A DNA stretch of 61,017 nt from an uncultured bacterium (lineage in GTDB: Bacteria; Cyanobacteriota; Vampirovibrionia; Gastranaerophilales; Gastranaerophilaceae), in assembly GCA_902794035.1 (NCBI GenBank), contig CADBFN010000007.1, positions 1-61,017 on the forward strand, in the 5' to 3' direction. The translations under genes were made by a program, and so were the position numbers. Shown here piece by piece: positions 10,831-52,693 of this stretch; position 1 is the stretch's first letter, and each line of letters opens with the position of its first letter. A model generated the notes under the pieces. That model ran no database searches. It worked only from the letters and a program-made list of their open reading frames with translations, and was not told where the DNA came from.

Positions 10831-10860
10831 AAAAAGCTTGATATTATTATCAAGCTTTTT
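10831..10860. terminator. Bidirectional terminator between ftsZ and the giant gene
   Basis: AAAAAGCTTGATA pairs perfectly with TATCAAGCTTTTT over a 4-base loop; A-runs and T-runs on both flanks make it work in either direction. Confidence 0.9.
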
Positions 10861-10884: not shown

Positions 10885-13800
10885 CTATGCAGATGTTATC
10901 CCAACATTAGGGAATGATTTTTTTACACTATGTTCATATTCCAACAGCTCCTGTAATTGCTCAATATATCTTTCAGCATCTTTTGCGACAGGAGAATTAT
11001 CAGGGAGCAACAACTTTTTCATTAAATCATACCTTTTTTGAATGATTAATAATGGGTTATTAAGGTAATCAATATTTGCACTGACTATCTGACGCAGTCC
11101 TGATATAGCAAGATCAATACTTGTGCCTAAAATAAGAGTTTTTGATTGATCCGGGAGTCTTTTAATATCGTTCAAAGCATCATCAATAGCAGCTTCAAAT
11201 ATTTTTGCACCTTCTCTGTACTTAGTCTTTTTACATTTTTCCATTATTCTGTTTTTGTAGTCTAAAATAATTTTTTCATAATCAGGATTATTATCAAAAT
11301 TTTCTAATTTTTTGAATTCACTTTTTGCAAATTTTGCCTGAGAGTCTGCACTTTTCAGGATTGTTTGAATTCTGTTAAAATTTTTATAAGCAATATCAAG
11401 AGATTCTTTATCAGATATCATTTTTGCAACTTTTTCGGAAAGTCCCAACTGATTTAAGAACAATGCCGCAGTATCAAGACTTTCTTCGTTTAGCATAGGT
11501 GCAACTATAATATTTAATCCGTCATCAGAATCCATAGAAACAACAGTTCCGTTAGTCAATTCTAAAGTTGAATTTTTGAATGCATCTCTGACAGCATTAA
11601 GATTACCTTTTCTTGCACATTCCATTAATGTTGTTTGCAATTCCATCATATCAGCCTTATATAACAAAGATTTCAGATTAGTTTTATATGTATCTTTCAA
11701 GGCTTGTAGAGCATTTTTTGACGTTTCAGAATCATCAGAATACTTTGTATCCGGATGTTTTGCATCTTTTGTACAAAGCATTAAATACTCTTTCATATAT
11801 CTGTCAGGAGTTTCAAGAAGTCTGTGCTTATAGAACAGATCTCTGAACTGATTAAATATTTCATCTGCATTTTCTACATTTTGCGAGTATGTATCTGCAA
11901 TATTTTTTGAAACATCAGAACTTTCATCTGTTAATGTTGAATTAAAATGGTCTTTTACCCAAACGGCTTTTGATTTAACAGAAATCCATTTATTTATTAA
12001 TTCAAGAGCCTTATTCTGATACTTAGGCTCAAACAAAGCCATGATATAAGTCTTTTTATATTCATCAATATTATCTAAAGTAACTTTTTGAGCTTCTTTC
12101 ATTGTCTTGCCATCTGCAGTTTTTTCATACAACTTGAATAAATTATATACGGAATTAATATATTTTCTGAATTGTTCAACATCACGAGATCCTGACGCCA
12201 ATAATTGTTCTGCTTCAGCTCTTGTATCATCAATAGTTTCATCATTGGAATTTAATGCCATTAATCTATTTATATCTGAAGCAATTTTTTTGTATTGAGC
12301 AGGTGTCATATCGCCTGTTTTAGGCAATTTTGAATCAGCATAATTTTTCATATCCGTAACTATTTCAAGTGAAAACTGCTGATTTTTGTAAGCATAGATA
12401 TAATCCATATAATTATTTAATTTTTCACTGAAAGTATTAAGCGAATTTTCTATATCTTCAGGAGTAGAAATTTCAACCTGCGGATATGCAGGAAAAACTC
12501 CATACTTCCTGAATGCATCATCTTTGTATTTATTAAATTCCTTTTTAACAGTTAATTCGCGGAAATTATAATAAAAATCTGAATATAAATCATCAAATGA
12601 ACGCTTACCGCCAACATAAGTCCCGCCGCTTAAATTTCTTGAAAGTTTTTTCAAGTCATAATATGCACGCGTTTTACTTTCATCAATGTCTTTATAATAA
12701 CTTTCTGAGAATACAGTATTTATAAATGAATTTTTGATTGTTTCATTTCCTGTACGAATCATTTTGACTATATCGTATCCGCTAATAGATTTAATACCTA
12801 AATCTGTATCTGTAATTTTTGAATCATATTTTTGAATATACTCTTTTTGAGTCATATTTCTCAGGCTATTGAGGATTTGCGCAAATTCTTTATCTGTTTT
12901 TGGAGCAAATTCTCTGTCAATCCATTGCGCTATTTGTTGATTACGATAAGAATTGAATCCTGTTTTTACATCTTTTTCAGTAATTGTCAAATTCTTTTCA
13001 ATCAGTGGTCTGATTTTATCTGATAAAGCTTTTATTTTATCCTCTGAAACTTTTGTCTTAATTTTCATGGACTTTTCAAATTTTGCCTGCATTAAGTCAA
13101 TACCTTGACTTATGCTGCCATTGTATTCATTACCTTTGACATTTTTCATCGAATTAACGATTTTTGTCATAGCTTTATAGCTTAAATTCAGATTATTTTC
13201 CTGAGCAAAAGTTTTCAACTCACTATATATATCTTTTCTTGAGCTTTCTGTAGCGTATCTTATAATTTCAGGATTTTTAGCCATAATATAATCAAAATTT
13301 TTACGTGCTTCTGCCTGAAGCTTTTTATGCAATTTATCAAGGTCTTTTTGAGATTTCACTTCAACATTATATGTATTTATATCAGGAATATCATCATAAG
13401 ACTTTATAATCGCAACCTTTTCTGAAATAAGTCTTAATTTATCATCAGGTGCAAGTTTATAATATTTTTCTTCAGAATCAATACCTTTATCAAAAGTACC
13501 ATCTCCATCAATTCTTTTTAATAAAAGAGGATACAATTTTCTTGATGCATCACCAGCAGTTTCTATTTTTTTAATAGTCGATTTTAACTCGTCCCTTGTC
13601 ATATTAGAAGCGTACTCAGTTAATTCATCAATATAATCATACGAAGGGAGCAAAAGAGTTTGCTTTATAGTTTTTACAGTACTCATCGCCTTAGGAGAAA
13701 CGCCCTGAAGGATCAAAGAACGAATCAGCGGGAATGAATATTGTTCATTACCATCATTTACTAGTTTATTGTATCTTCTTGACGGAATTCTTTGAGGTTT

Positions 13801-16800
13801 ATATTCACCTTTTCTGTCAATTAAATTATCATCTATTTTGCCGTTCTGATACTGATCATTTGTAATATATCCGAGTTGTCCGCCATATTCTGCAGAATAA
13901 TCAGTTCTCAATAATCCCTGAGAATCAGTCCAGACATTTTCGTGTTCTGAAGCACCCCAACTATTGTCGTGAAATATAATATCATGAACTTTTTTTGTAT
14001 CTTCAGAAACTAAAACTGTAGGTTTTACATCAACAACATATTGAGCATGCATTGCGGGTTCGTCATCTTTGACAGAAGTCATTGATGTCCCTGAATAAGG
14101 AGCATTTTTTATCTTGTTCAAACCTGTACGAATATTTCTTTCTTCATAGTACGGTCGGTCGGTCATGTGTTCAAAAATTTTCAATGCCTGATTTTCCATC
14201 AAACCACTTTCATTTTCTTTTGTCCAATATTCTCCTTTTTGAACACCGATTTCTCTGTTTAATTCTTCTAAAGGCTCTTTCATAAACGTATAAATATCAT
14301 TAAGACGTCTTGTTGATGTTGCATACCATGAATTAATATTCTGTCTGTATTTCGCAAGAGCCTCTTTTTCCATTGGAGTGAAAGTTGTTATCTCTTTTGG
14401 CAAATCCTTAAATTTAACCCTTAAACCTTCATCATTATCCTGACTTTTGTAATATTTATCAAATTTATTTCTCAAAGAAGTAAGTTCTTTTTCAGTTGGG
14501 ATTTCGCCCATATTTTCAAGCTTTCTCAATACTGCATATTTTGGATCCGCAGTATTTAACAAAGTTCCGTCTTCAGAACTGATTTGCAAAGTATCCTGAA
14601 GTGTCTTTATTATAAGTGACATATTATTAAAACTTGTTGCAAGGACTTGATATAACTGTTGTGTAACTTCTATATCAGCATCCTGAGGAGCACCGTTTAT
14701 AAGATTAAAGCCTGCTATATAAGAAGGATTTGGTTCTCTGAACAAAAGTTCAAAAGTATTGTCAAATGAATCTTTTAAATCCAATAAATGCGATTTATGA
14801 CCGGATTTATTCAGAATTTCTAAATACTGTTCTTCCGTACAGTTTTCATCATCCAAAATATCCAAATACTTATCAAATGTATTTAGTAAAATATTTCTGT
14901 TAGGCTTCAAACCAAATTCATCAGCAACAGATTCAATTTCGCTTTTATCTTTTGTTACTTCTATTTCATTTCTTATAGCACCTATTTGAGTCGATAGGAC
15001 TTGTTTTCTGTCTCCAAGCAATAATGCATGATATAAATCATCCATAAAAGTAGTTCTCATAAGATTTACGGTATTTACATAATCATCCATAACTTCAGCC
15101 AACACTTCGTCCGGATTAGCTAAATCACCTTTTTCCTGAGCTTTTTCTCTAACTTCATTGCCAAATCTTTCAAATAATTTTTCTTTTAATTCAGGATTAA
15201 TTTTTCCTGAACGAATATTATTGCTAAGAGTTTCAAGATTTTTTATCAAAAAGGATTCGTTATCGGGTATATTTAACTGATTCATTAAATCCGTAAGATA
15301 TTTCGGGATATCCAATGCAAAAGTATGCATTGTCCTATAAGCTGCGGCAGCATTAAATAAAGCTCTGCTGTCGGCATATCTCTGAGCCTCTGATGTAGAA
15401 TAACCTTTATTTAAGTCATGTATTTCAGTTATTAAATCAACTATATCATTTGATTTTTCTTCTATTAATTTTTTATTACTGTCAGAAGGTAAAATACTTG
15501 ATAAATAATTTGCAACTTTTTGAGATTTTGATTCATCTGTTTCATTATTTATAAAAGAGTATTTTAATTTTAGACCGTCTAATCGTTTTTGCTTGTCTGA
15601 ACTATCTACAGACAAAGATATTAAATCACTGCCTATATGCCTTATTTCATCTTTAGTCAAAGAAGGGGACATTTTATGAAGTATAGAATAAATTAATGTT
15701 GTATCCTTATGAATTTCAGAAATATTTTTAGCATCCTGAGATGATTTTATTGAAGTGTAATATTTTTGTTTTTCAATTTTTCTTTTGCATGAAACGACGG
15801 CTTCTTTTGATTTCATACAACTTCTGTAATAATCTTGGTATTTTTCTTTTTCTGCGTCTATATCTTTATGAATATGCGTATCATTAAAAGTTCCAAAATT
15901 ATCCTTATCAAACGCGCTATATGCTCCAATTACATCATTAAACGCACCTGCAGTATCTGCAGCATTCATCCAGTTCATTACAGATGTATCGACAATACGA
16001 TATCCTTTTGACAAAGCATAATCATAATCAATTTTAGCCTTTGGAACAGGGACTTTTTGGTGCCTGCCAAGATTTGTTCTGTCATATACCTGCATATAAT
16101 CGTTATTGTCAAGTTCTGTCAATACCATATCAACATAGTTTGACTTATCTTCGTATGCAAGCGCCTTACGGCAAATTGATATTGCAACGCACATACCATG
16201 CTGTTTTTGATTAATTGCTTTTATATTTGGAACTTTTGACTCCGGAGTATTGACGGTAATATCATTTAAGATTTCAGCAAGAACCTGAGTCTTTTTGTCC
16301 TTTAACTGAGGATTGATTACATAATCATCACTCATTAAATAATTCAATTTTTTTAGAATATATAATTTTTGCGCAATAGGAACTTCAGACGATACGACAA
16401 AATAACTTAAATTCCTTTTTATATTGGCAGCATTGGCATTCTTTACATTTTTTAATTCCTCAGGATTTATTTTTGACAAAAGTAATTCGCTGTTTGCAAG
16501 AATTTCTTTTTCTTCTTTGGTAAGATTTTTAGGAGAAGAAAAAGCCAGAGTTAATTTATGCGCAAGTTTTTCCTGAACAGACTTGTCAGACAATTCGAAT
16601 GATTTTTTTGCAGCCGCATTTAACTTTGCTTTCCAATCATTGTACGGTTTTTTGCCTATGTCTATATTCGTTCCGTAACGAAGATTATCAGATACATCCA
16701 GCAAAAAGTTTATATTGTCTTCTCCTGACACATTTCCCAAATCTTCAATAGCTTTTGATATTCGTCTTTGGTTAGGAAGATTCAAATCGTAAGGATTGTC

Positions 16801-16881
16801 ATGTTTTAACTGTTCTACAGTATTTCTATCTTGTCTTATACCTGTAAAGGCGGCATAATTATTAACTCTATAAATTCTCAT
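10885..16881 (-). CDS. Giant protein (1998 aa) with a split papain-like Cys/His/Asn triad
   Basis: I know no named family for this protein. It is soluble, mostly helical and Lys/Asp/Asn-rich, with no signal peptide or membrane segment; codon use matches the region. Three motifs fit the catalytic residues of papain-fold (clan CA) peptidases. Cys231 lies in KQHGMCVAIS, preceded by a Gln five residues earlier (Gln227 region) as an oxyanion candidate. His945 lies in EPAMHAQYVVDV and Asn973 in IIFHDNSWG, the classic NSWG form. I checked that the codons at 16189-16191, 14047-14049 and 13963-13965 encode these residues. About 700 helical residues separate Cys from His, and about 1000 follow Asn. No Shine-Dalgarno sequence is visible. 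A secreted or host-directed role is possible but unproven; the peptidase call is inference from motifs. Confidence 0.75.
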   Translation of the reverse strand: MRIYRVNNYAAFTGIRQDRNTVEQLKHDNPYDLNLPNQRRISKAIEDLGNVSGEDNINFLLDVSDNLRYGTNIDIGKKPYNDWKAKLNAAAKKSFELSDKSVQEKLAHKLTLAFSSPKNLTKEEKEILANSELLLSKINPEELKNVKNANAANIKRNLSYFVVSSEVPIAQKLYILKKLNYLMSDDYVINPQLKDKKTQVLAEILNDITVNTPESKVPNIKAINQKQHGMCVAISICRKALAYEDKSNYVDMVLTELDNNDYMQVYDRTNLGRHQKVPVPKAKIDYDYALSKGYRIVDTSVMNWMNAADTAGAFNDVIGAYSAFDKDNFGTFNDTHIHKDIDAEKEKYQDYYRSCMKSKEAVVSCKRKIEKQKYYTSIKSSQDAKNISEIHKDTTLIYSILHKMSPSLTKDEIRHIGSDLISLSVDSSDKQKRLDGLKLKYSFINNETDESKSQKVANYLSSILPSDSNKKLIEEKSNDIVDLITEIHDLNKGYSTSEAQRYADSRALFNAAAAYRTMHTFALDIPKYLTDLMNQLNIPDNESFLIKNLETLSNNIRSGKINPELKEKLFERFGNEVREKAQEKGDLANPDEVLAEVMDDYVNTVNLMRTTFMDDLYHALLLGDRKQVLSTQIGAIRNEIEVTKDKSEIESVADEFGLKPNRNILLNTFDKYLDILDDENCTEEQYLEILNKSGHKSHLLDLKDSFDNTFELLFREPNPSYIAGFNLINGAPQDADIEVTQQLYQVLATSFNNMSLIIKTLQDTLQISSEDGTLLNTADPKYAVLRKLENMGEIPTEKELTSLRNKFDKYYKSQDNDEGLRVKFKDLPKEITTFTPMEKEALAKYRQNINSWYATSTRRLNDIYTFMKEPLEELNREIGVQKGEYWTKENESGLMENQALKIFEHMTDRPYYEERNIRTGLNKIKNAPYSGTSMTSVKDDEPAMHAQYVVDVKPTVLVSEDTKKVHDIIFHDNSWGASEHENVWTDSQGLLRTDYSAEYGGQLGYITNDQYQNGKIDDNLIDRKGEYKPQRIPSRRYNKLVNDGNEQYSFPLIRSLILQGVSPKAMSTVKTIKQTLLLPSYDYIDELTEYASNMTRDELKSTIKKIETAGDASRKLYPLLLKRIDGDGTFDKGIDSEEKYYKLAPDDKLRLISEKVAIIKSYDDIPDINTYNVEVKSQKDLDKLHKKLQAEARKNFDYIMAKNPEIIRYATESSRKDIYSELKTFAQENNLNLSYKAMTKIVNSMKNVKGNEYNGSISQGIDLMQAKFEKSMKIKTKVSEDKIKALSDKIRPLIEKNLTITEKDVKTGFNSYRNQQIAQWIDREFAPKTDKEFAQILNSLRNMTQKEYIQKYDSKITDTDLGIKSISGYDIVKMIRTGNETIKNSFINTVFSESYYKDIDESKTRAYYDLKKLSRNLSGGTYVGGKRSFDDLYSDFYYNFRELTVKKEFNKYKDDAFRKYGVFPAYPQVEISTPEDIENSLNTFSEKLNNYMDYIYAYKNQQFSLEIVTDMKNYADSKLPKTGDMTPAQYKKIASDINRLMALNSNDETIDDTRAEAEQLLASGSRDVEQFRKYINSVYNLFKLYEKTADGKTMKEAQKVTLDNIDEYKKTYIMALFEPKYQNKALELINKWISVKSKAVWVKDHFNSTLTDESSDVSKNIADTYSQNVENADEIFNQFRDLFYKHRLLETPDRYMKEYLMLCTKDAKHPDTKYSDDSETSKNALQALKDTYKTNLKSLLYKADMMELQTTLMECARKGNLNAVRDAFKNSTLELTNGTVVSMDSDDGLNIIVAPMLNEESLDTAALFLNQLGLSEKVAKMISDKESLDIAYKNFNRIQTILKSADSQAKFAKSEFKKLENFDNNPDYEKIILDYKNRIMEKCKKTKYREGAKIFEAAIDDALNDIKRLPDQSKTLILGTSIDLAISGLRQIVSANIDYLNNPLLIIQKRYDLMKKLLLPDNSPVAKDAERYIEQLQELLEYEHSVKKSFPNVGITSA

Positions 16882-18052: not shown

Positions 18053-19180
18053 ATGTCATTTGTATCAAATGTCGTTAAATACGCATGGAAATACACTGCA
18101 CCAAGGGTGAAAGATATCAGCAAACTGCAATACGTTACACCGGTAACAAAAGATGCAGGATTAAAAATTGTGCATCCAATTAAGCAAGTAGCAGTTTCCG
18201 CCGAAAAAAGTCTGAGTGGTCTGACTCAGGCTTTCAGAGAAAAACTTGATCTTTATAATGCATGCAAATTACTAAAGTCAGAAGGCTTTAATACCGGTAC
18301 ACGAATTATTAACCGATGGAAGCCGGAGTATGGCATACAAATAAACGGAGTTTACAGAAACGCGATAGAAGAACTAAATCAAAGCGGTGCAATAGAACGC
18401 TATATCAGTCAAAGATTTCCGGCAATAAAATCAAAAGCTGATATCGAATACATTAAAGGCATTTTGAACAAATATCTCGAAAAAAACCTTGATATATATA
18501 CATACCCAAGAATAAGCAAAATATTGTCAGGTTTTCATCCTGAAATTGCACAAAAATTAAAAAATGGTGCAATAATTTATATGCCAAATAAAGAAAAAAG
18601 TTATAGCCTGATTACTCAGATGTATAAAGAAATAAATCCTGATGCAAAGATAATTGAAGGCTATAAAAATTTAAAAACATTTTTACAAGACAAAAAGGGA
18701 GTTGAAATAATTGTATTAGATGATTGTCTTGTAAGCGGAAAATCTGCTGCCGGGCTGCATAAAAACATTTTTCTGGATATCCCGGGCGGAAAAGACAAAG
18801 TTAAATCTATGGATATGTATGTTTTGACAGCTTCTTCTGATGGATTAAACAAAGTACCCAAAGAGATTAAAGTACACTACGATTCATTAAAACATTCATT
18901 AACAAGATCTGATTATTTCAAAAATGAATTAGCACCTGAAGAGAAAAATATACTTCTTGCTGCGTTAGGCTCCAGTGATTTAAAATACAATCAGTATTGC
19001 GGTATTATGCTTCCTTATATGTCGCCAAACAACAACAGTTTATTTAGTGCTCACATGATAAGAGAATTATTCAGCGGTCCGGAATGTGCAATTAAAGGTA
19101 TCTTTAGTCCGACAGAAATTGATATTCTTCGTTCAGAAGCAATAAGAAGGGCTTTGCAGCCTGCAGCTGCGGCTGTTTAA
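18053..19180 (+). CDS. Phosphoribosyltransferase-like protein, 375 aa
   Basis: The central part has a PRPP-loop-like signature, IIVLDDCLVSGKSAAG (residues 219-234): two acidic residues followed by a small-residue loop, as in type I phosphoribosyltransferases. An upstream strand-turn-helix (AIIYMPNKEKSYSLI, 173-187) could be the PPi-loop half of the same fold. The C-terminal motif LPYMSPNNNS (320-329) resembles the asparagine pair of the PRTase-like domains found in bacterial conflict systems (from memory, not certain). The first about 150 residues are lineage-specific, with a basic, mildly hydrophobic start but no clear signal peptide. A GGGGA site precedes the ATG. The enzyme reaction is not predictable from sequence alone. 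Confidence 0.55.
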   Translation: MSFVSNVVKYAWKYTAPRVKDISKLQYVTPVTKDAGLKIVHPIKQVAVSAEKSLSGLTQAFREKLDLYNACKLLKSEGFNTGTRIINRWKPEYGIQINGVYRNAIEELNQSGAIERYISQRFPAIKSKADIEYIKGILNKYLEKNLDIYTYPRISKILSGFHPEIAQKLKNGAIIYMPNKEKSYSLITQMYKEINPDAKIIEGYKNLKTFLQDKKGVEIIVLDDCLVSGKSAAGLHKNIFLDIPGGKDKVKSMDMYVLTASSDGLNKVPKEIKVHYDSLKHSLTRSDYFKNELAPEEKNILLAALGSSDLKYNQYCGIMLPYMSPNNNSLFSAHMIRELFSGPECAIKGIFSPTEIDILRSEAIRRALQPAAAAV

Positions 19181-19228
19181 TTCATAATTCTTAATAATTA
19201 AAAGTTTTAAAGCAATTTTTTTTATGTT

Positions 19229-19253
19229 ATTCCTTTGTAAAAACAAAAGGAAT
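19229..19253 (+). promoter_or_regulatory. Hairpin in the leader of the NADAR-like gene
   Basis: ATTCCTTTG (19229-19237) pairs with CAAAAGGAAT (19244-19253) with one bulge. The 3' arm contains the only AAAGG ribosome-binding candidate of the gene, so folding would hide it. Confidence 0.4.
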
Positions 19254-19262
19254 TAAAACTAA

Positions 19263-20180
19263 ATGATAAATATTTCTAATACCCCTAAAGCAGCAAAAAT
19301 TATAAGCATAAACCCAAATATACAGCCTAAAAATAAAACCGGTAAAACAACCGAATACAAATATTTAAACAAAATTTATGACATAAAGGCAAGAGGTGCT
19401 TATCCGAGTAACATATTGAGCAATTTCGCACCAACATCCTTTAAGATCGACGGAGTGAAAGTAAAATCTCTTGAAGGCTTTCTACAATCATTAAAAGTAA
19501 ATAACCCTGAAACCCAACGTAAAATGTGTTTATTAGATGGTTTTGAAGCAAAAAAAATGTCTAAAAGCATAAAACAATCTGAAAATGATATGCTTTTATT
19601 TTGGAAAGGCAAAACTTTTCTTAAAGGTTCTGAAAAATATAAAGAACTGAAACAATCTGTAATAGAAGCAAGTAAAAAAGCTGAAGGCGAATTTTTTAAT
19701 TTTGAAGGCGAAATGATTTCTTCAGTTAATGCTTTTTTGATGGCAATAAAAGTAAATAACCCTGAAATTCAGAATCTAATTTTAAAAATGCCACAGGAAA
19801 ACTTAAAAACTATATCAAAAAATATTACTCCTAAATACCAGATAAGAGATCTGTATTGGAACGGGAAAGTTATAAAACGTGATTCAAAAGAGTATGAAGA
19901 ACTTCTTGATAAAGCATATAAACAAAGATTCAAAAGTGATTTTCTTTTTAGAAAAGCTTTAAAAGACTCAAAAGGATATACACTAATCCACTCAAGAGGG
20001 AAAACCGATATATCAGATACAGTTTTGACACAGAATGAATTTTTAGACAGGCTTAACGATCTTCGAGCTAATAATGAATTAAAATACAAATTACTTGATG
20101 CAATATACTCTCCATATTGTAAATTTAAGGAATTCATAAAATTATTAATGAATAAAATATCCGAATATATAGAACAATAA
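19263..20180 (+). CDS. NADAR (YbiA/DUF1768)-like protein with internal duplication
   Basis: Residues 48-85 (SNILSNFAPTSFKIDGVKV, then LEGFLQSLKVNNPE) and 195-268 (DLYWNGKVIKRDSKEYEELL, then TLIHSRGKTDI, then VLTQNEFLDRL) match what I recall of the NADAR/YbiA superfamily. Its members cleave N-glycosidic bonds in riboflavin-pathway intermediates or remove ADP-ribose from guanine in DNA. Between these parts the middle is duplicated: residues 58-135 align with 144-221, with LKVNNPETQ/IKVNNPEIQ spaced by 85 residues. The 20-base DNA word at 19493 recurs identically at 19748. The fold would therefore be complete only by combining copies, or the protein carries one extra half. No membrane segment is seen. 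Family call likely, function inferred. Confidence 0.7.
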   Translation: MINISNTPKAAKIISINPNIQPKNKTGKTTEYKYLNKIYDIKARGAYPSNILSNFAPTSFKIDGVKVKSLEGFLQSLKVNNPETQRKMCLLDGFEAKKMSKSIKQSENDMLLFWKGKTFLKGSEKYKELKQSVIEASKKAEGEFFNFEGEMISSVNAFLMAIKVNNPEIQNLILKMPQENLKTISKNITPKYQIRDLYWNGKVIKRDSKEYEELLDKAYKQRFKSDFLFRKALKDSKGYTLIHSRGKTDISDTVLTQNEFLDRLNDLRANNELKYKLLDAIYSPYCKFKEFIKLLMNKISEYIEQ

Positions 20181-33906: not shown

Positions 33907-36900
33907 TTAGTGTTTTATCCAACGAAAACTTTTTACATAATTCGTTCCGTTAATATCTCCGAAAATATCAGCTCTAAACACTCTTACCGCTGTATCTTTA
34001 CTAAAATTAGGAATTTTATTTATGTTGCTTGTAGATTCCGGATTGATATCATTTATATTAATACCAGGAATTTTATTTAATAATCTGTTTAAAGATGCAT
34101 TACCAATCATACCAAGCAATGTTGAGAAATCTTTAGACAAACTGCCATAGACCTGCATATCAGCAACAAGTGCAGATATATCATAACTTCCGGTCAGATA
34201 CATATTAAGTTCTTTACCTTCAGAATAAACATTAATATCATTTACAACACCGTTTTCAACTTTTACATCACCTTTAATCTGAGAGAATTGACCGGTTTTT
34301 AAAGGAGTTATTAAATCAATTATACCATTTACGGATACACCGGTAATTCCGCCTGTTACGAGATTTGCAGCTTTTAACAAATATTCAAGAGATCCGAGTT
34401 TTGGCATTCTGCCATCTTTTACATTAAAAGAGCCTTCTCCGCTAAGAGTATTAACGCACTCAACGCTGTTAGAGCCTTTGAAATATGCCTTAAGATCCCC
34501 TGTTACAAGTCCATACATTTGCCCCGGCATATCTAAGAAATTTTCACTGATAATTTCAGCATCAGCATCTTGAATACTCATAGTCGCATTTGTTTCCATC
34601 GTATCCAGATTGGTAGAAATATCACCGTATATTCTGCCATTTGCAAGGTTTAAGGAATAATTATTTATATGAAGAACATTGTCATTATCCATTGTAATTT
34701 TGGCACTAAAATCATCTGCCTGAGCCTTTTTAATCAAAATTTTATCAGCTATTATTTCACCATTTTTTATAATAAATTGACCGGACGGCATAGAACCTGA
34801 CTGAGCAATTTCTTCTTTTAATTTTAACCTGTTTGTATCGTAATCATTAAACGCATCCAGTAACACATTCAGATCAAAAACATCAGTTCTAAGTTTCAAA
34901 TCTTCAATAATATATGGAGGTTTAGGATTATTTACTATTTTGGCAAGCAAACTTATATCGTTAGTCATTACAACTCCACGCGAATTTAAATTGATATAAT
35001 CTCTTTGCATATCAATATCTATATCGCGAATTGTTGAATTAAACAAAGGAATATCAATACTTGAAACATTCAGTGTTCCTAATGCGTAAGGAGCAAGAGA
35101 AGTCCCGTTTATCAAAACATCTGTCATGAACATTCCCTGTTTTATTGTTGGTTTTTTCAATAAAATATTAAATATTTTAGCATCCGTTGGTTCATAAGTT
35201 TTTATTTTCAGATTATCGAATTTCAGGACATTATTCTTCAGTAAAGAAATTGCGCCGGACATAGATAATTGTTTTTGTTTAGACGTTTTTTTATTCTGGG
35301 AGGTTATAGTCTGAATATAATCAAGAGAATTAATTTTAACTTTATTAGGCATAACAACGACATCAGAATTAATTGAAACAGGATTTGTTGCTATTCCGTC
35401 GATATCAGTTATACCTGATGGAGAACCTGACAGAGTAGCGCCCATATAATAAATTGAAGAATTTTCTTTTATATTCAGATTTGAATTTAAACGTAAATTA
35501 TTTAGCGGACCGCTTACTTTTGATGTAAAATTAGCATCACCTTTCAATTTGACCGGATAAACGGAATTGTTATTAACTAACTTATCAAAAAACTCCTGAC
35601 AAAGCTTGCCTGAAACATACAGATTTAAATTTGGATTTGATAAAATATTAGATATGCTACCATTTATAAATACAGGCATTGAACTTACTTTAGAATTTAT
35701 TTTGCTCAAATAAAGAGTTTTACCGCGCATATTTGCCTGACCTGACAATACATTTACAACCGCATCAAAAGGTTTGTAACGGAAGCTTATATTACTCAAA
35801 TCAGAATTTGAATATATTTCGCCATTTTTTATATTTCCTGAGATATCTATATGCCCCTTAATATCAGAAATATCATCCATCTGATTTTTATATGACTGAG
35901 GTAAATCAATCTGATCTTTTGCTTCACTTACAGAAGCGATATTAAAATTACGGAAATTAAAAACAGCATCCTTAATTTTCATTGCTTTATAAATATCTGC
36001 ACCTGTAAAGGATAATGTAAACGGACTTTCATAAAAAGAACCGTTTATGCCTTTTACACTCAGTTCAGAATTTTTAAGATTGAAATTTGCATTTTTTACC
36101 TTGATAGGGTTTGATGAGTTCACATTGGATAATATTTTACCGGTAGCGGAAATTTTGTTGTAATCCAAACGTGAAGTTTGCGCCTGACCTTTATATTTTG
36201 CGACAAAAGAAGCCTCTAAATTTCCCAAATCGTTTTTAAAAGGAACAAATAAATTCGGATTAGTAGCTTCCCACAAGTTAATCAGCTTAAATCTGTCAGA
36301 AGAAGCCGTCAAATCTATATTTGTATTTTGAGCAGTCCCTTTTACATGTATATGAGAATCTTTAAGCATCCCCTTTATATCATAGTCTGCATCACGTTTA
36401 TCAAAATTAACTTCACCATTAATATTTTTTACAGGAAGATATGTATCCTGGAGAACAGTCGTTGCATTATGAAAAACGATTTTCCCTTTTGCGAATAAAT
36501 CTTCATTGAATTTAATCTGAGTTACATCATCCTGAACTTTACCATATATTGTCAGGTACAAATCCCCAATTCCGTCAGGCTGCCTGAAAGGTAAAGTTAC
36601 TTTCTGAACTTCTGCCAACTCGGGAGAAGAATTTATAACCTTAATCATATCAGGAATTTTTTGTCCCATTGTTCGGGCTTCGACTTTCACATCCCCAAAT
36701 ACGCTGCACTTACCTTCAATATCAGCTTTTTTGCCATTGATTGTCCCTTTGGTTACTTTAAATAAGATATTGCGGTCTTTAAATAATACTTCACCTGCGG
36801 CGTTTTTGAGTTCGAGGTTTTTAACCTGATTAAAAGACGCTGTACCATCCCAAAATCGTAGTTCCCCAAATATATGAGGATCAATTTTCTTACCTGCCGA

Positions 36901-38403
36901 ACGAAGATCAATAGAACCAAAACCTCTTGCTTGCATAACAGGCACAGGCCCCAGTTTGAATTTCAACATCTGATGCAATGGCATTAATACAGTTCTGGCA
37001 ATCGTTAAATCAATAGCATTCGTACTTTTTATATTTAATTCAGAATATTTGGAACCGTCAATTTTTGCGAAACCCGTAACTGAAACGCTCTGAGTGTCCG
37101 TAACAGGAACAAAAACATCCACATCCATTATTTGACGATTAAAATCCAAATCAACAGATCCGCCTTCAGGATTGAGCAATTTAGTATTCACAACATGAAG
37201 ATTGCGAAGTTTTATTTTACCAAAAACATCCGGTAAATTCCCATCGCCTTTAAAACGAAGATGTCCTTCTCCGGTTCCGAAAATATCTGTTTCTTTAAAT
37301 TTATAAAAATTCATATCAGGAGGTATTTCTTTAAACCAAGGTAAAATTTTAACCACATCCTGAAGTCGTGCTTTTCTTATATCTAATTTCAAATCCATAG
37401 CAGGAATTTTTTTCCCTGAAGATAAAAGATTACCTTTTAATGCAAATTTAAAATCTTTTGACTCTATAGAAGTGTTTTTAAAATCAATCCCGCCTGCTAT
37501 CGTTTCAAAATTACTGTTTAAAGACAATTTATCGTGATAAATAATCTGTGAAGGTTTATCAACACCAATAACTTCAAGACCATTTGTCCAAATTGATAAA
37601 TCTACAAGCTTATGACCGGATTTTGTAAGTTTGGTATTTGCATTGACATTGAGAAAACCTGACAATTTTTGAACAACACCATTGGTTAGTACAGGTGCGT
37701 AATATGAAATTGAAGATAAGTCAAAATCTTTTATAGCGGCATTTAATTTTAATTTGTTATCATTAAAATTATTCAATGGTAAATCTAGCTCTACATCAGC
37801 AAAATACGGAGTCTTTTTATTTTCTATGATAAAATTACCCTTTGTAGAGAATTGAATTTTATCATTCAGCACAAATTTCGCATTATTAAGATAATCACCC
37901 CTAATTGCTAATTTTTTATTATTTAACTTGTCATCAAGATTTATATTATATTCCCCGATATCAAGATTTACTTTTGCGATTTTGAATGGCGACTCCTTAG
38001 TTTCCAGCTTTATTGGATTATCACCAATTAAAAATTTTTTATCTTTTGAAAATACGAAATTGACAATTTCTTTGTCCGCAAATATATGAGAAATTTCTAC
38101 TTTTTTAAATAAAAGAGGAAAAAGCTTTATTTTTACTTTTGGATTATCAATAGATAAAGCTTTTGAGCCATCCTTATTTAAAAGAGATATATTATCACTT
38201 TTAATCCAAATCGACGGGAAAGAGCCCATAGATAATTTAGCATTTCCAAGTTTTACATTATAATTCGAAGCGTTATATATCTGAGATTCGATTTGCGACT
38301 GGTGTTCAGGCAAATTAATTATTGCAGGAATACCCCAAATATACCCTGCACTCAAAATTGCAGCAAAAGCTGTTAAAGTTATAATTTTCCACTTCTTTCT
38401 CAT
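33907..38403 (-). CDS. AsmA/TamB-like (DUF3971-type) envelope protein, 1498 aa
   Basis: A membrane-anchored protein with one N-terminal helix (about residues 5-24) and a very long repetitive beta-rich periplasmic part. The N-terminal AsmA-like segment (residues 25-110) contains NVKLGNAKLSMGSFPSIWI and IDNPKVKIKLFPLLF. The C-terminal part (about 1280-1420) has the AsmA_2/TamB-like pattern around DGRMPKLGSLEYLLKAANLV and GQFSQIKGDVKVENGVV. Such proteins form long hydrophobic grooves that carry lipids between inner and outer membranes, implying a diderm envelope. A TATAAT element (38418-38413) lies ten bases before the ATG. Exact subfamily (YhdP, TamB or AsmA) is not resolved. Confidence 0.82.
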   Translation of the reverse strand: MRKKWKIITLTAFAAILSAGYIWGIPAIINLPEHQSQIESQIYNASNYNVKLGNAKLSMGSFPSIWIKSDNISLLNKDGSKALSIDNPKVKIKLFPLLFKKVEISHIFADKEIVNFVFSKDKKFLIGDNPIKLETKESPFKIAKVNLDIGEYNINLDDKLNNKKLAIRGDYLNNAKFVLNDKIQFSTKGNFIIENKKTPYFADVELDLPLNNFNDNKLKLNAAIKDFDLSSISYYAPVLTNGVVQKLSGFLNVNANTKLTKSGHKLVDLSIWTNGLEVIGVDKPSQIIYHDKLSLNSNFETIAGGIDFKNTSIESKDFKFALKGNLLSSGKKIPAMDLKLDIRKARLQDVVKILPWFKEIPPDMNFYKFKETDIFGTGEGHLRFKGDGNLPDVFGKIKLRNLHVVNTKLLNPEGGSVDLDFNRQIMDVDVFVPVTDTQSVSVTGFAKIDGSKYSELNIKSTNAIDLTIARTVLMPLHQMLKFKLGPVPVMQARGFGSIDLRSAGKKIDPHIFGELRFWDGTASFNQVKNLELKNAAGEVLFKDRNILFKVTKGTINGKKADIEGKCSVFGDVKVEARTMGQKIPDMIKVINSSPELAEVQKVTLPFRQPDGIGDLYLTIYGKVQDDVTQIKFNEDLFAKGKIVFHNATTVLQDTYLPVKNINGEVNFDKRDADYDIKGMLKDSHIHVKGTAQNTNIDLTASSDRFKLINLWEATNPNLFVPFKNDLGNLEASFVAKYKGQAQTSRLDYNKISATGKILSNVNSSNPIKVKNANFNLKNSELSVKGINGSFYESPFTLSFTGADIYKAMKIKDAVFNFRNFNIASVSEAKDQIDLPQSYKNQMDDISDIKGHIDISGNIKNGEIYSNSDLSNISFRYKPFDAVVNVLSGQANMRGKTLYLSKINSKVSSMPVFINGSISNILSNPNLNLYVSGKLCQEFFDKLVNNNSVYPVKLKGDANFTSKVSGPLNNLRLNSNLNIKENSSIYYMGATLSGSPSGITDIDGIATNPVSINSDVVVMPNKVKINSLDYIQTITSQNKKTSKQKQLSMSGAISLLKNNVLKFDNLKIKTYEPTDAKIFNILLKKPTIKQGMFMTDVLINGTSLAPYALGTLNVSSIDIPLFNSTIRDIDIDMQRDYINLNSRGVVMTNDISLLAKIVNNPKPPYIIEDLKLRTDVFDLNVLLDAFNDYDTNRLKLKEEIAQSGSMPSGQFIIKNGEIIADKILIKKAQADDFSAKITMDNDNVLHINNYSLNLANGRIYGDISTNLDTMETNATMSIQDADAEIISENFLDMPGQMYGLVTGDLKAYFKGSNSVECVNTLSGEGSFNVKDGRMPKLGSLEYLLKAANLVTGGITGVSVNGIIDLITPLKTGQFSQIKGDVKVENGVVNDINVYSEGKELNMYLTGSYDISALVADMQVYGSLSKDFSTLLGMIGNASLNRLLNKIPGININDINPESTSNINKIPNFSKDTAVRVFRADIFGDINGTNYVKSFRWIKH

Positions 38404-44384: not shown

Positions 44385-45683
44385 CTAAGAAATTCTGCCA
44401 GGGACAACAACCCCGCCTTTTAAATTCTTTTTATAGAATTCAACGTGAGGCTGAAGAACAGAGTCAAGAACTTCAGGGAATGATTGTCCGTTCATAATTC
44501 TTGTTACAATTTCCTGATAAACTGTAGCGAAAGCTCTTAATTGAGTCAATCTTCCTGCAGCTTCGGCAGTTAATCCCATACCTTTTGTTTCCACTTTTTC
44601 TACAAAAAGCGAACCGGTAACAGAATAAGATTTTGTTAAAGCTTCAATATAACTTTCGGAATTTTCTCTGCATTCACCTTTATCAACAGGAACTGTTAAA
44701 GCAAAGACAAGTTTGTTTGCAGGGTTAAAATGCGCTTCTGCTGAGTGATGCATTGCATCAGGAACCTTTGCAACCTGTTTTAGAGTATCTTTAACAGATT
44801 CATTTTGCATTTGAGCATGCCAATATACGGTGTTTTCGAATATAGCTCCCATATATTGGTGAACAGAAGCATCAATTCCGTTTGATTTAGCATCGGCCCA
44901 GAAAATACCTTCTTTTAAAGCATCATTGATTTCCAAATCTGCAGTTAAAGATTCTGTTGAAACTGTTTGTGCAGAATTCAGCATTGTAATCATGTCTTCT
45001 TTTTTCATGCCTGCATATGCTAATGTGAATAATGCGTGATCGTCAAAAGCAGAAAATCTTCCGCCTACATCATCATGGATAAACAAATCGCCAATCCAGT
45101 TATTTTCGTTTGAGGTTCTTCTCAATTCTGATTTTTCAGCATTCGCATCAGTTACGGCAATAAAATGTTTATTTGCACAGATTTTTGCTTCCTGTTCAGA
45201 TTTACCCTGAGCTTTATAAGCTTCAATAAGTCTGTTTAAGATTCTCAAAAATCCGTCTTTTGTTTCAAATGTAGAACCTGATTTTGATGCTATAAGGTAA
45301 TTTGAAGAAGTTACATCATTACCTAAACGATATAAAAATCTTTCCCAGCTTGAAGAATCTATATCAGAATAGAATTCAATATCAGTTCTGTTAATGTTTA
45401 AACCATTAATAGATAACATGTGTTCTACTGTATGTTTAGAACCACCAATACCCATTACACTTAATGTTTTAGCTCCTGTAGCTGATTTTAATTTTGAAAC
45501 CATTGAATAAATTTCATCAACTCTTTGAGCCTGTTTTGAAGGTAAATCTACCCAATTCAAAAATTGACCTGATTTATTTGCACGAGAAGAAAATTCTTTT
45601 ACAAATTCAGACACTTTTGAAGAATACTTGCTAAAATCTATTCCAGAGAAATTAGCAGTTAAACTTGAACTTTTAGTCAACAT
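44385..45683 (-). CDS. Glucose-6-phosphate isomerase family protein, divergent
   Basis: A 432-residue SIS-fold protein of the PGI family. The family signature DDVGGRFSAF is clear, as are SVMGIGGSKHTVE (sugar-phosphate loop) and IASKSGSTFET. However, the second PGI signature (FDQxGVExxK with the catalytic Lys) is not found, and the GARDQHT-type Arg loop is replaced by a QYMGAIFENTVYW segment. The start at 45683 (MLTKSSS) has AAAGG seven bases before it. A second, more typical PGI is encoded at 51305. This one may use another sugar phosphate or be bifunctional like some phosphoglucose/phosphomannose isomerases; function not assigned. Confidence 0.8.
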   Translation of the reverse strand: MLTKSSSLTANFSGIDFSKYSSKVSEFVKEFSSRANKSGQFLNWVDLPSKQAQRVDEIYSMVSKLKSATGAKTLSVMGIGGSKHTVEHMLSINGLNINRTDIEFYSDIDSSSWERFLYRLGNDVTSSNYLIASKSGSTFETKDGFLRILNRLIEAYKAQGKSEQEAKICANKHFIAVTDANAEKSELRRTSNENNWIGDLFIHDDVGGRFSAFDDHALFTLAYAGMKKEDMITMLNSAQTVSTESLTADLEINDALKEGIFWADAKSNGIDASVHQYMGAIFENTVYWHAQMQNESVKDTLKQVAKVPDAMHHSAEAHFNPANKLVFALTVPVDKGECRENSESYIEALTKSYSVTGSLFVEKVETKGMGLTAEAAGRLTQLRAFATVYQEIVTRIMNGQSFPEVLDSVLQPHVEFYKKNLKGGVVVPGRIS

Positions 45684-45764
45684 AATCATCCTTTCTTTTT
45701 TACCTATACACGCTTATTATTTTAGCACAAAGTAAATCACATGATTTAAATTAAGAATAAATTA

Positions 45765-51304: not shown

Positions 51305-52693
51305 ATGCTTGAACTTGATATCAGAGGAGTAAGCCAAGATATAATCGGCAGCGAAAATGGCTTAAATATACAAGCAGAATTTGAAAATTACAAAACACAA
51401 ATTGCAGATATAGTATCTGATTTATACAAACGAAAAGATACACCCGGTGAAGGATTGCAATGGATGAACTTAGGATACAGTCAGGAAACATCGTGGTATG
51501 TTAAAGAATATGCTGCACTTGTTGAAAACAGATTTGATAATATCCTTGTTTTAGGTATCGGCGGTTCAACTTTAGGCGGAATTGCAATCACTCACGCATT
51601 ACTAAAACCTTACTGGAATTTGCTATCTAAAGAACAACGAGGAGGATATCCGCGTATATTCTTTCTTGACAATGTTGATCCCGATGATATTAACGGACTT
51701 TTAGACATAATTGATTTAAAGAAAACCCTTGTTAATGTTATTACCAAATCAGGTGATACTACAGAGACAATGGCTCAGTATATGATTATCAAAGACAGGT
51801 TAGAGAAAGAATTAGATGATGATTACAGAAAAAATATCATAGTCACTACTGACAAAAAAACAGGAATTTTAAGACAAATATCAGAACAAGAGGGATATAA
51901 AACTTTTGTAGTTCCGGATGACGTAGGCGGGAGATTTTCTGTATTTACTGCTGTCGGACTTTTACCTTTTGCATTAGTAGGAATTAACATTGACGAAATA
52001 ACTGCAGGAATAAGAGATTTAGATGCGCAACTTAAAAATACGAATATTTACGAAAATATTGCAGCACAAAATGCACTTATTCACTATCTGCTAGATACTA
52101 AATACGGAAAAGACATAACAGTATTAATGCCTTATTCTGAAAAATTGAAATTTATTCCCGACTGGTTTACCCAACTGTGGGCAGAGTCCCTCGGGAAAAA
52201 TAAAACAATAGAAGAAAAACCGATTAAAGCAGGCCCGACCCCAATCGGAGCTATAGGTGCAAGAGATCAGCATACACTTATGCAATTATTTAATGAAGGT
52301 CCAAACAATAAAGTAATAAACTTCGTGAGAATCGGAGAATTTGATACAACATTGGATATTCCTCAAATCTTTCAATATACAGGGATTGGTTACTTAGGCG
52401 GGAAAACAGTAAATAATCTTATCAATGCGGAAGCTGATTCAACTCAGGCTACACTTATAGATTATTCAAGACCAACTATAACTATTAAAATTCCGAAAGT
52501 AGATGGTTATCATATTGCACAATTACTATATATGCTTGAAATGCAAACAGCAATAACAGGAGCATTATACAATATCAACACTTTTGATCAGCCATCAGTA
52601 GAGCAAACAAGAAACTACACTTACGGACTAATGGGCAGAATAGGCTACGAGGGATCTGCAAAAGCACTGCATGACAAACTTGAATATGTATAA
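51305..52693 (+). CDS. pgi: Glucose-6-phosphate isomerase
   Basis: Interconverts glucose-6-phosphate and fructose-6-phosphate. The 462-residue protein shows VLGIGGSTLGGIAI, VITKSGDTTETM, the PGI signature VPDDVGGRFSVF, the Arg loop IGARDQHT and a FDQPSVEQTRN segment. In the last, the family pattern FDQxGVExxK expects Gly then a catalytic Lys; here Ser and Arg are found. AAGGGG precedes the ATG. A second, more divergent paralogue is at 44385. Nearest well-characterised relatives would be Thermus/Bacillus-type PGIs of about 415-450 residues. Confidence 0.92.
   Translation: MLELDIRGVSQDIIGSENGLNIQAEFENYKTQIADIVSDLYKRKDTPGEGLQWMNLGYSQETSWYVKEYAALVENRFDNILVLGIGGSTLGGIAITHALLKPYWNLLSKEQRGGYPRIFFLDNVDPDDINGLLDIIDLKKTLVNVITKSGDTTETMAQYMIIKDRLEKELDDDYRKNIIVTTDKKTGILRQISEQEGYKTFVVPDDVGGRFSVFTAVGLLPFALVGINIDEITAGIRDLDAQLKNTNIYENIAAQNALIHYLLDTKYGKDITVLMPYSEKLKFIPDWFTQLWAESLGKNKTIEEKPIKAGPTPIGAIGARDQHTLMQLFNEGPNNKVINFVRIGEFDTTLDIPQIFQYTGIGYLGGKTVNNLINAEADSTQATLIDYSRPTITIKIPKVDGYHIAQLLYMLEMQTAITGALYNINTFDQPSVEQTRNYTYGLMGRIGYEGSAKALHDKLEYV

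Follow-up and report, generated by a model that had tools for sequence, protein, structure and literature searches.

A predicted giant papain-like cysteine peptidase, split by a large helical insert, in the Gastranaerophilales

Cysteine peptidases of the papain family (C1A) and the short bacterial C1 forms carry the motifs NQ-x(3)-G-x-C-x-A-[F/I]-S and HA...N[S/T]WG in a domain (PF00112) that spans about 220 aa, without a giant insert, in the examples matched in this work. Bleomycin hydrolase (C1B, Peptidase_C1_2, PF03051) has the papain fold, the Gln, Cys, His and Asn residues and no obvious signal peptide, all within about 450 aa and without large helical arms. Calpain (C2) adds calcium regulation and accessory domains. 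Transglutaminase-like enzymes have a Cys-His-Asp triad and lack the NSWG motif. The papain-like fold can also tolerate interruption, and in the ubiquitin-specific deubiquitinases (UCH, PF00443) a large insertion separates the core helix from the sheet (PMC10318531). The inserted part is their beta "fingers" domain, with which they grip ubiquitin.

The giant protein described here shares the two motifs of the C1 peptidases in the same register, and it shares with bleomycin hydrolase a predicted papain fold, the four catalytic residues and the lack of an obvious signal peptide. Unlike either group, it carries a giant insert and helical arms of great size, and its sequence similarity to C1 domains lies below detection. 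Calpain's calcium regulation and accessory domains are not seen in it, and its insert is all-helical, in contrast to the beta fingers of UCH.

The protein is encoded in a window of 61,017 nucleotides (the whole stretch of DNA that was analysed) from an uncultured bacterium of the Gastranaerophilaceae (GCA_902794035.1, contig CADBFN010000007.1). As the initial annotation had it, an intact ORF (10885-16881) encodes 1998 aa from an ATG start; it lies on the minus strand, as do all parts of the protein given below. Full-length homologues with 37-72% identity occur in the same genus, and the 1.79-Mb genome contains a single copy of the gene. Searches of Pfam at E<=1, of PDB sequences and of NCBIfam gave no match to the protein, which agrees with the earlier remark that the insert and the C-terminal part contain no known domain. 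Matches in PHROG were weak and unnamed, no signal peptide is visible by eye, and a literature search returned nothing on a giant papain-like family; most likely, the family is previously unnamed and undescribed. A role in anti-phage defence was considered and set aside, since PADLOC gave no match. Elsewhere in the window, a protein of 1498 aa with an N-terminal membrane segment (33907-38403, minus strand) looks AsmA/TamB-like by eye and has no Pfam match, and a PRTase-CE domain protein (PF24390) adjoins a phage GP30.3-like protein (PF08010) at 18053-20180 on the plus strand.

Conservation was assessed in an alignment of 51 non-redundant homologues, reaching down to about 25% identity. Cys231 (16189-16191), the predicted nucleophile, His945 (14047-14049), the predicted general base, and Asn973 (13963-13965), the third residue of the triad, stand exactly where the initial annotation placed them, and each is invariant (51/51) in the homologue comparison that it had called for. 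Gln225 (16207-16209), the predicted oxyanion-hole residue, is likewise invariant (51/51) and lies six residues before Cys231, the same offset as that between Gln19 and Cys25 of papain. Both C1 motifs, Gln-x5-Cys and Asn-[Ser/Thr]-Trp-Gly, are therefore present, at Q225/C231 and from N973. Within HDN[S/T]WG, residue 974 is Ser or Thr and both Trp975 and Gly976 are invariant (51/51); Ala directly follows His945 in 49 of the 51 homologues. Among the eight cysteines of the protein Cys231 alone is invariant, the next best being kept in 29/51. The Cys-His spacing, 714 residues here, varies from 467 to 765 among natural variants that keep all the catalytic residues, and the His-Asn spacing stays at 20-31.

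The fold and domain layout are predictions, drawn from an AlphaFold2 model of residues 1-1040 (pLDDT 90.6, pTM 0.86) that was made with the unchanged sequence and the 51-row homologue alignment. A conserved all-helical N-terminal domain (residues 15-190; 16312-16839) is indicated by model blocks mostly above pLDDT 85 and by the conservation profile. Conservation, the model, VIA-align and hhalign together delimit a first catalytic half that resembles the papain L domain and holds Gln225 and Cys231 (residues 191-345; 15847-16311), and a second that resembles the R domain and holds His945 and HDNSWG (residues 883-1025; 13807-14235). By DSSP, Cys231 opens helix 231-244 and His945 opens strand 944-959, with Asn973 immediately after strand 962-972; this is the clan CA order of Cys at a helix start, His at a strand start and Asn after the next strand. 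The clan CA assignment made initially thus gains support from the conserved residues and their canonical placement in the model.

Structural comparison leans the same way. In VIA-align, the best bridging match among the matches listed was calpain (1qxp; Z 6.3, 192 residues aligned, model residues 190-1023), followed by bleomycin hydrolase (1gcb; Z 6.0, 152 aligned, model residues 35-1023), both with Z below the tool's safe level. These two were the sole listed rows to span both catalytic halves, so that the comparison proposed in the initial annotation, as far as it was taken, aligns the predicted fold with two clan CA peptidases across the insert; single domains inside a 1040-residue model score low, and a Z of about 6 is not decisive alone. 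Foldseek found nothing at E<=0.001 for the same model among PDB and viral structures, because helical parts dominate it and draw chance helical matches.

Another line of evidence comes from profile comparison. When 21 C1 peptidase domains from the class and phylum search loci were aligned by hhalign with the two catalytic halves, one at a time, NQ..HGMC of the first half fell on NQG..GSC of C1 (E 0.0021) and HA...HDNSWG of the second on HA...NSWG (E 0.035), both weak values, against E 0.18-0.63 for reversed controls; the alignment was unguided and brought all four residues, Gln, Cys, His and Asn, into C1 register. Searches of each half against Pfam and PDB profiles returned no peptidase and chance-level matches only. 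PF00112 and PF03051 matched neither the protein nor any of the 51 homologues over each half, so that its sequence places the protein outside family C1 as the current models define it, and the Pfam profile of calpain C2 matched neither the protein nor the catalytic halves of the homologues. PF00112 matches are themselves rare in the class and absent from the window's genome. In one relative genome (L128, G164:C58), open frames of about 1200 aa carry two C1 peptidase domains, as against the usual bacterial forms of 300 aa.

The triad is indeed split by a large insert, as first proposed; the insert proper, however, is not 700 residues long but about 540 (residues 346-882; 14236-15846; all-helical by DSSP of the model), less than the Cys-His spacing because part of that spacing is ordinary papain-fold sequence. 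A module of 237 residues within it (544-780; 14542-15252) is missing as one block in loci L039-L043, and a nearly identical stretch (535-773) is absent from the distant L044. Its absence in two separate lineages shows that the insert is modular, and the catalytic residues are independent of the module. Beyond the catalytic halves lies a nearly all-helical C-terminal arm of about 930 aa (residues 1065-1998; 10888-13689; AlphaFold2 mean pLDDT 85.9), whose model gave no significant match to PDB folds. In the conservation profile the arm averages below the catalytic halves, and it is far shorter in L039-L042.

The reading that best accounts for these observations, to which a probability of roughly 0.7 can be given, is that the giant protein represents an undescribed family of papain-like (clan CA) cysteine peptidases and is active as such, in the following way. 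The L-like half (about 191-345) and the R-like half (about 883-1025) would form one papain fold, in which Cys231 would act as nucleophile, His945 as base and Asn973 to orient His945, with Gln225 forming the oxyanion hole. The helical insert of about 540 residues would leave the fold at the junction of the two halves and then re-enter it. The insert, the helical domain at the N-terminus and the C-terminal arm of 930 residues would together most likely enclose or flank the cleft, so that access may be restricted to selected substrates or partners. The sequence, its conservation and the selection on it are observed; that the protein cleaves others, that the helical arms gate this cleavage and that its role is cytosolic and either house-keeping or regulatory is what we infer.

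The distribution of the family bears on this role. Among 382 genomes of the class, 95 encode a relative: 92 of these belong to the same family, and the remaining 3 come from other families within the order. The relatives include rumen genomes (RUG and RGIG records), and the window's genus has the gene in 25 of 32 genomes. A profile search of 386 genomes of the phylum found no relative outside the order, the only one in which the family is known so far. In the gene tree, genera g15, g16, g20 and g32 are monophyletic, g1 includes one g5 sequence and g30 is nested in g19. The tree thus mostly tracks genera, which indicates mainly vertical inheritance with losses, and dN/dS values of 0.07-0.19 among close relatives indicate purifying selection. 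The gene is monocistronic and convergent with ftsZ, with its own terminator, a computed bidirectional intrinsic one between the two genes (10831-10860). No neighbour is conserved family-wide as an operon partner; ftsZ and a response regulator adjoin the gene in one subclade of the genus only. A phage or plasmid origin was also considered and rejected, as searches of viral contigs, phages and plasmids found no relatives of the gene. The context is a better fit to a chromosomal house-keeping or regulatory enzyme than to a horizontally spread toxin.

The N-terminus carries a short tag, F-x-G (Phe12-Thr-Gly14; 16840-16848), followed by a conserved R-[Q/E]-D-R-N, with Phe12 present in 49/51 homologues. 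Elsewhere in the window's genome, unrelated proteins repeatedly start with a similar polar stretch that ends in F-x-G/A, among them those encoded at 44385-45689 of the window (minus strand), L082:16521-17612, L089:6937-8658, L091:2108-2512 and L094:13648-14502. By a crude test on the sampled part of the genome, the density of F-x-G/A per 1000 positions is about 1.5 in residues 8-30 and about 0.3-0.5 in residues 61-240, a modest, roughly 3-fold enrichment near N-termini. The protein at 44385-45689 (434 aa, with an F-S-G start and no Pfam match) is phosphoglucose isomerase-like by eye; a normal Pgi is also present (51305-52693), and relatives of the 434-aa protein adjoin the giant peptidase in L026-L028. 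Since two genomes without the giant peptidase have similar F-x-G/A starts, the idea that the tag marks its substrates is not supported. The tag may be a lineage-specific address. It is conceivable, and quite doubtful, that the family joins a papain cleft gated by the huge helical insert, and tunable through the 237-residue module, to an F-x-G address common to unrelated proteins, which would bring the protease together with the tagged proteins at a single location, either within the cell or outside it.

Several other explanations deserve weighing. The same fold and triad could serve a different acyl-transfer reaction, as a transglutaminase, deamidase, deconjugase or acyltransferase, and papain-like superfamilies do include such enzymes (PMC10318531). 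This appears unlikely, in that Gln at Cys-6, His-Ala and Asn-[Ser/Thr]-Trp-Gly constitute a C1 peptidase signature that aligns with C1 peptidases. The transglutaminase-like enzyme raised in the initial annotation is the less supported option, the third residue being Asn in 51/51 and lying inside N[S/T]WG; a peptidase, also raised there, is favoured over it because of Q-x5-C and N-[S/T]-W-G. The toxin-like effector, its third suggestion, finds no specific support in a single-copy, mostly vertically inherited gene that is under purifying selection and lies in neither a mobile nor a toxin-immunity context. A more elaborate version, in which the protein is exported by a Sec-signal-free route, marked by F-x-G, and acts on neighbouring cells, could draw on the conservation of that tag and on its recurrence in the genome. 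It is nevertheless improbable: the phosphoglucose isomerase-like protein also has the tag, as do genomes that lack the peptidase, the enrichment of the tag is modest, conserved secretion, immunity or mobile genes do not lie beside the gene, phage and plasmid copies were not found and the gene tree mostly tracks genera.

There is very little room for a catalytically dead scaffold with a papain fold. The giant helical parts do make up most of the protein, as such a scaffold might suggest, but every catalytic residue is invariant, in contrast to the diverging arms and remaining cysteines. That an unrelated giant helical protein carries the motif by chance is just as improbable and has been largely refuted by the 51/51 invariance, the canonical predicted topology and the bridging matches to two clan CA peptidases, even though no sequence profile of a peptidase matches and the profile-profile E-values are individually weak.

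An active papain-like peptidase of this kind would mean that a little-understood group of gut bacteria, those of the rumen included, has a further enzyme family, conserved and widespread, that lacks annotation. If the predicted model is right, the family would also show how far the papain fold can be split with its active site held fixed, and its natural long- and short-insert forms provide a ready comparison for the role of the insert.
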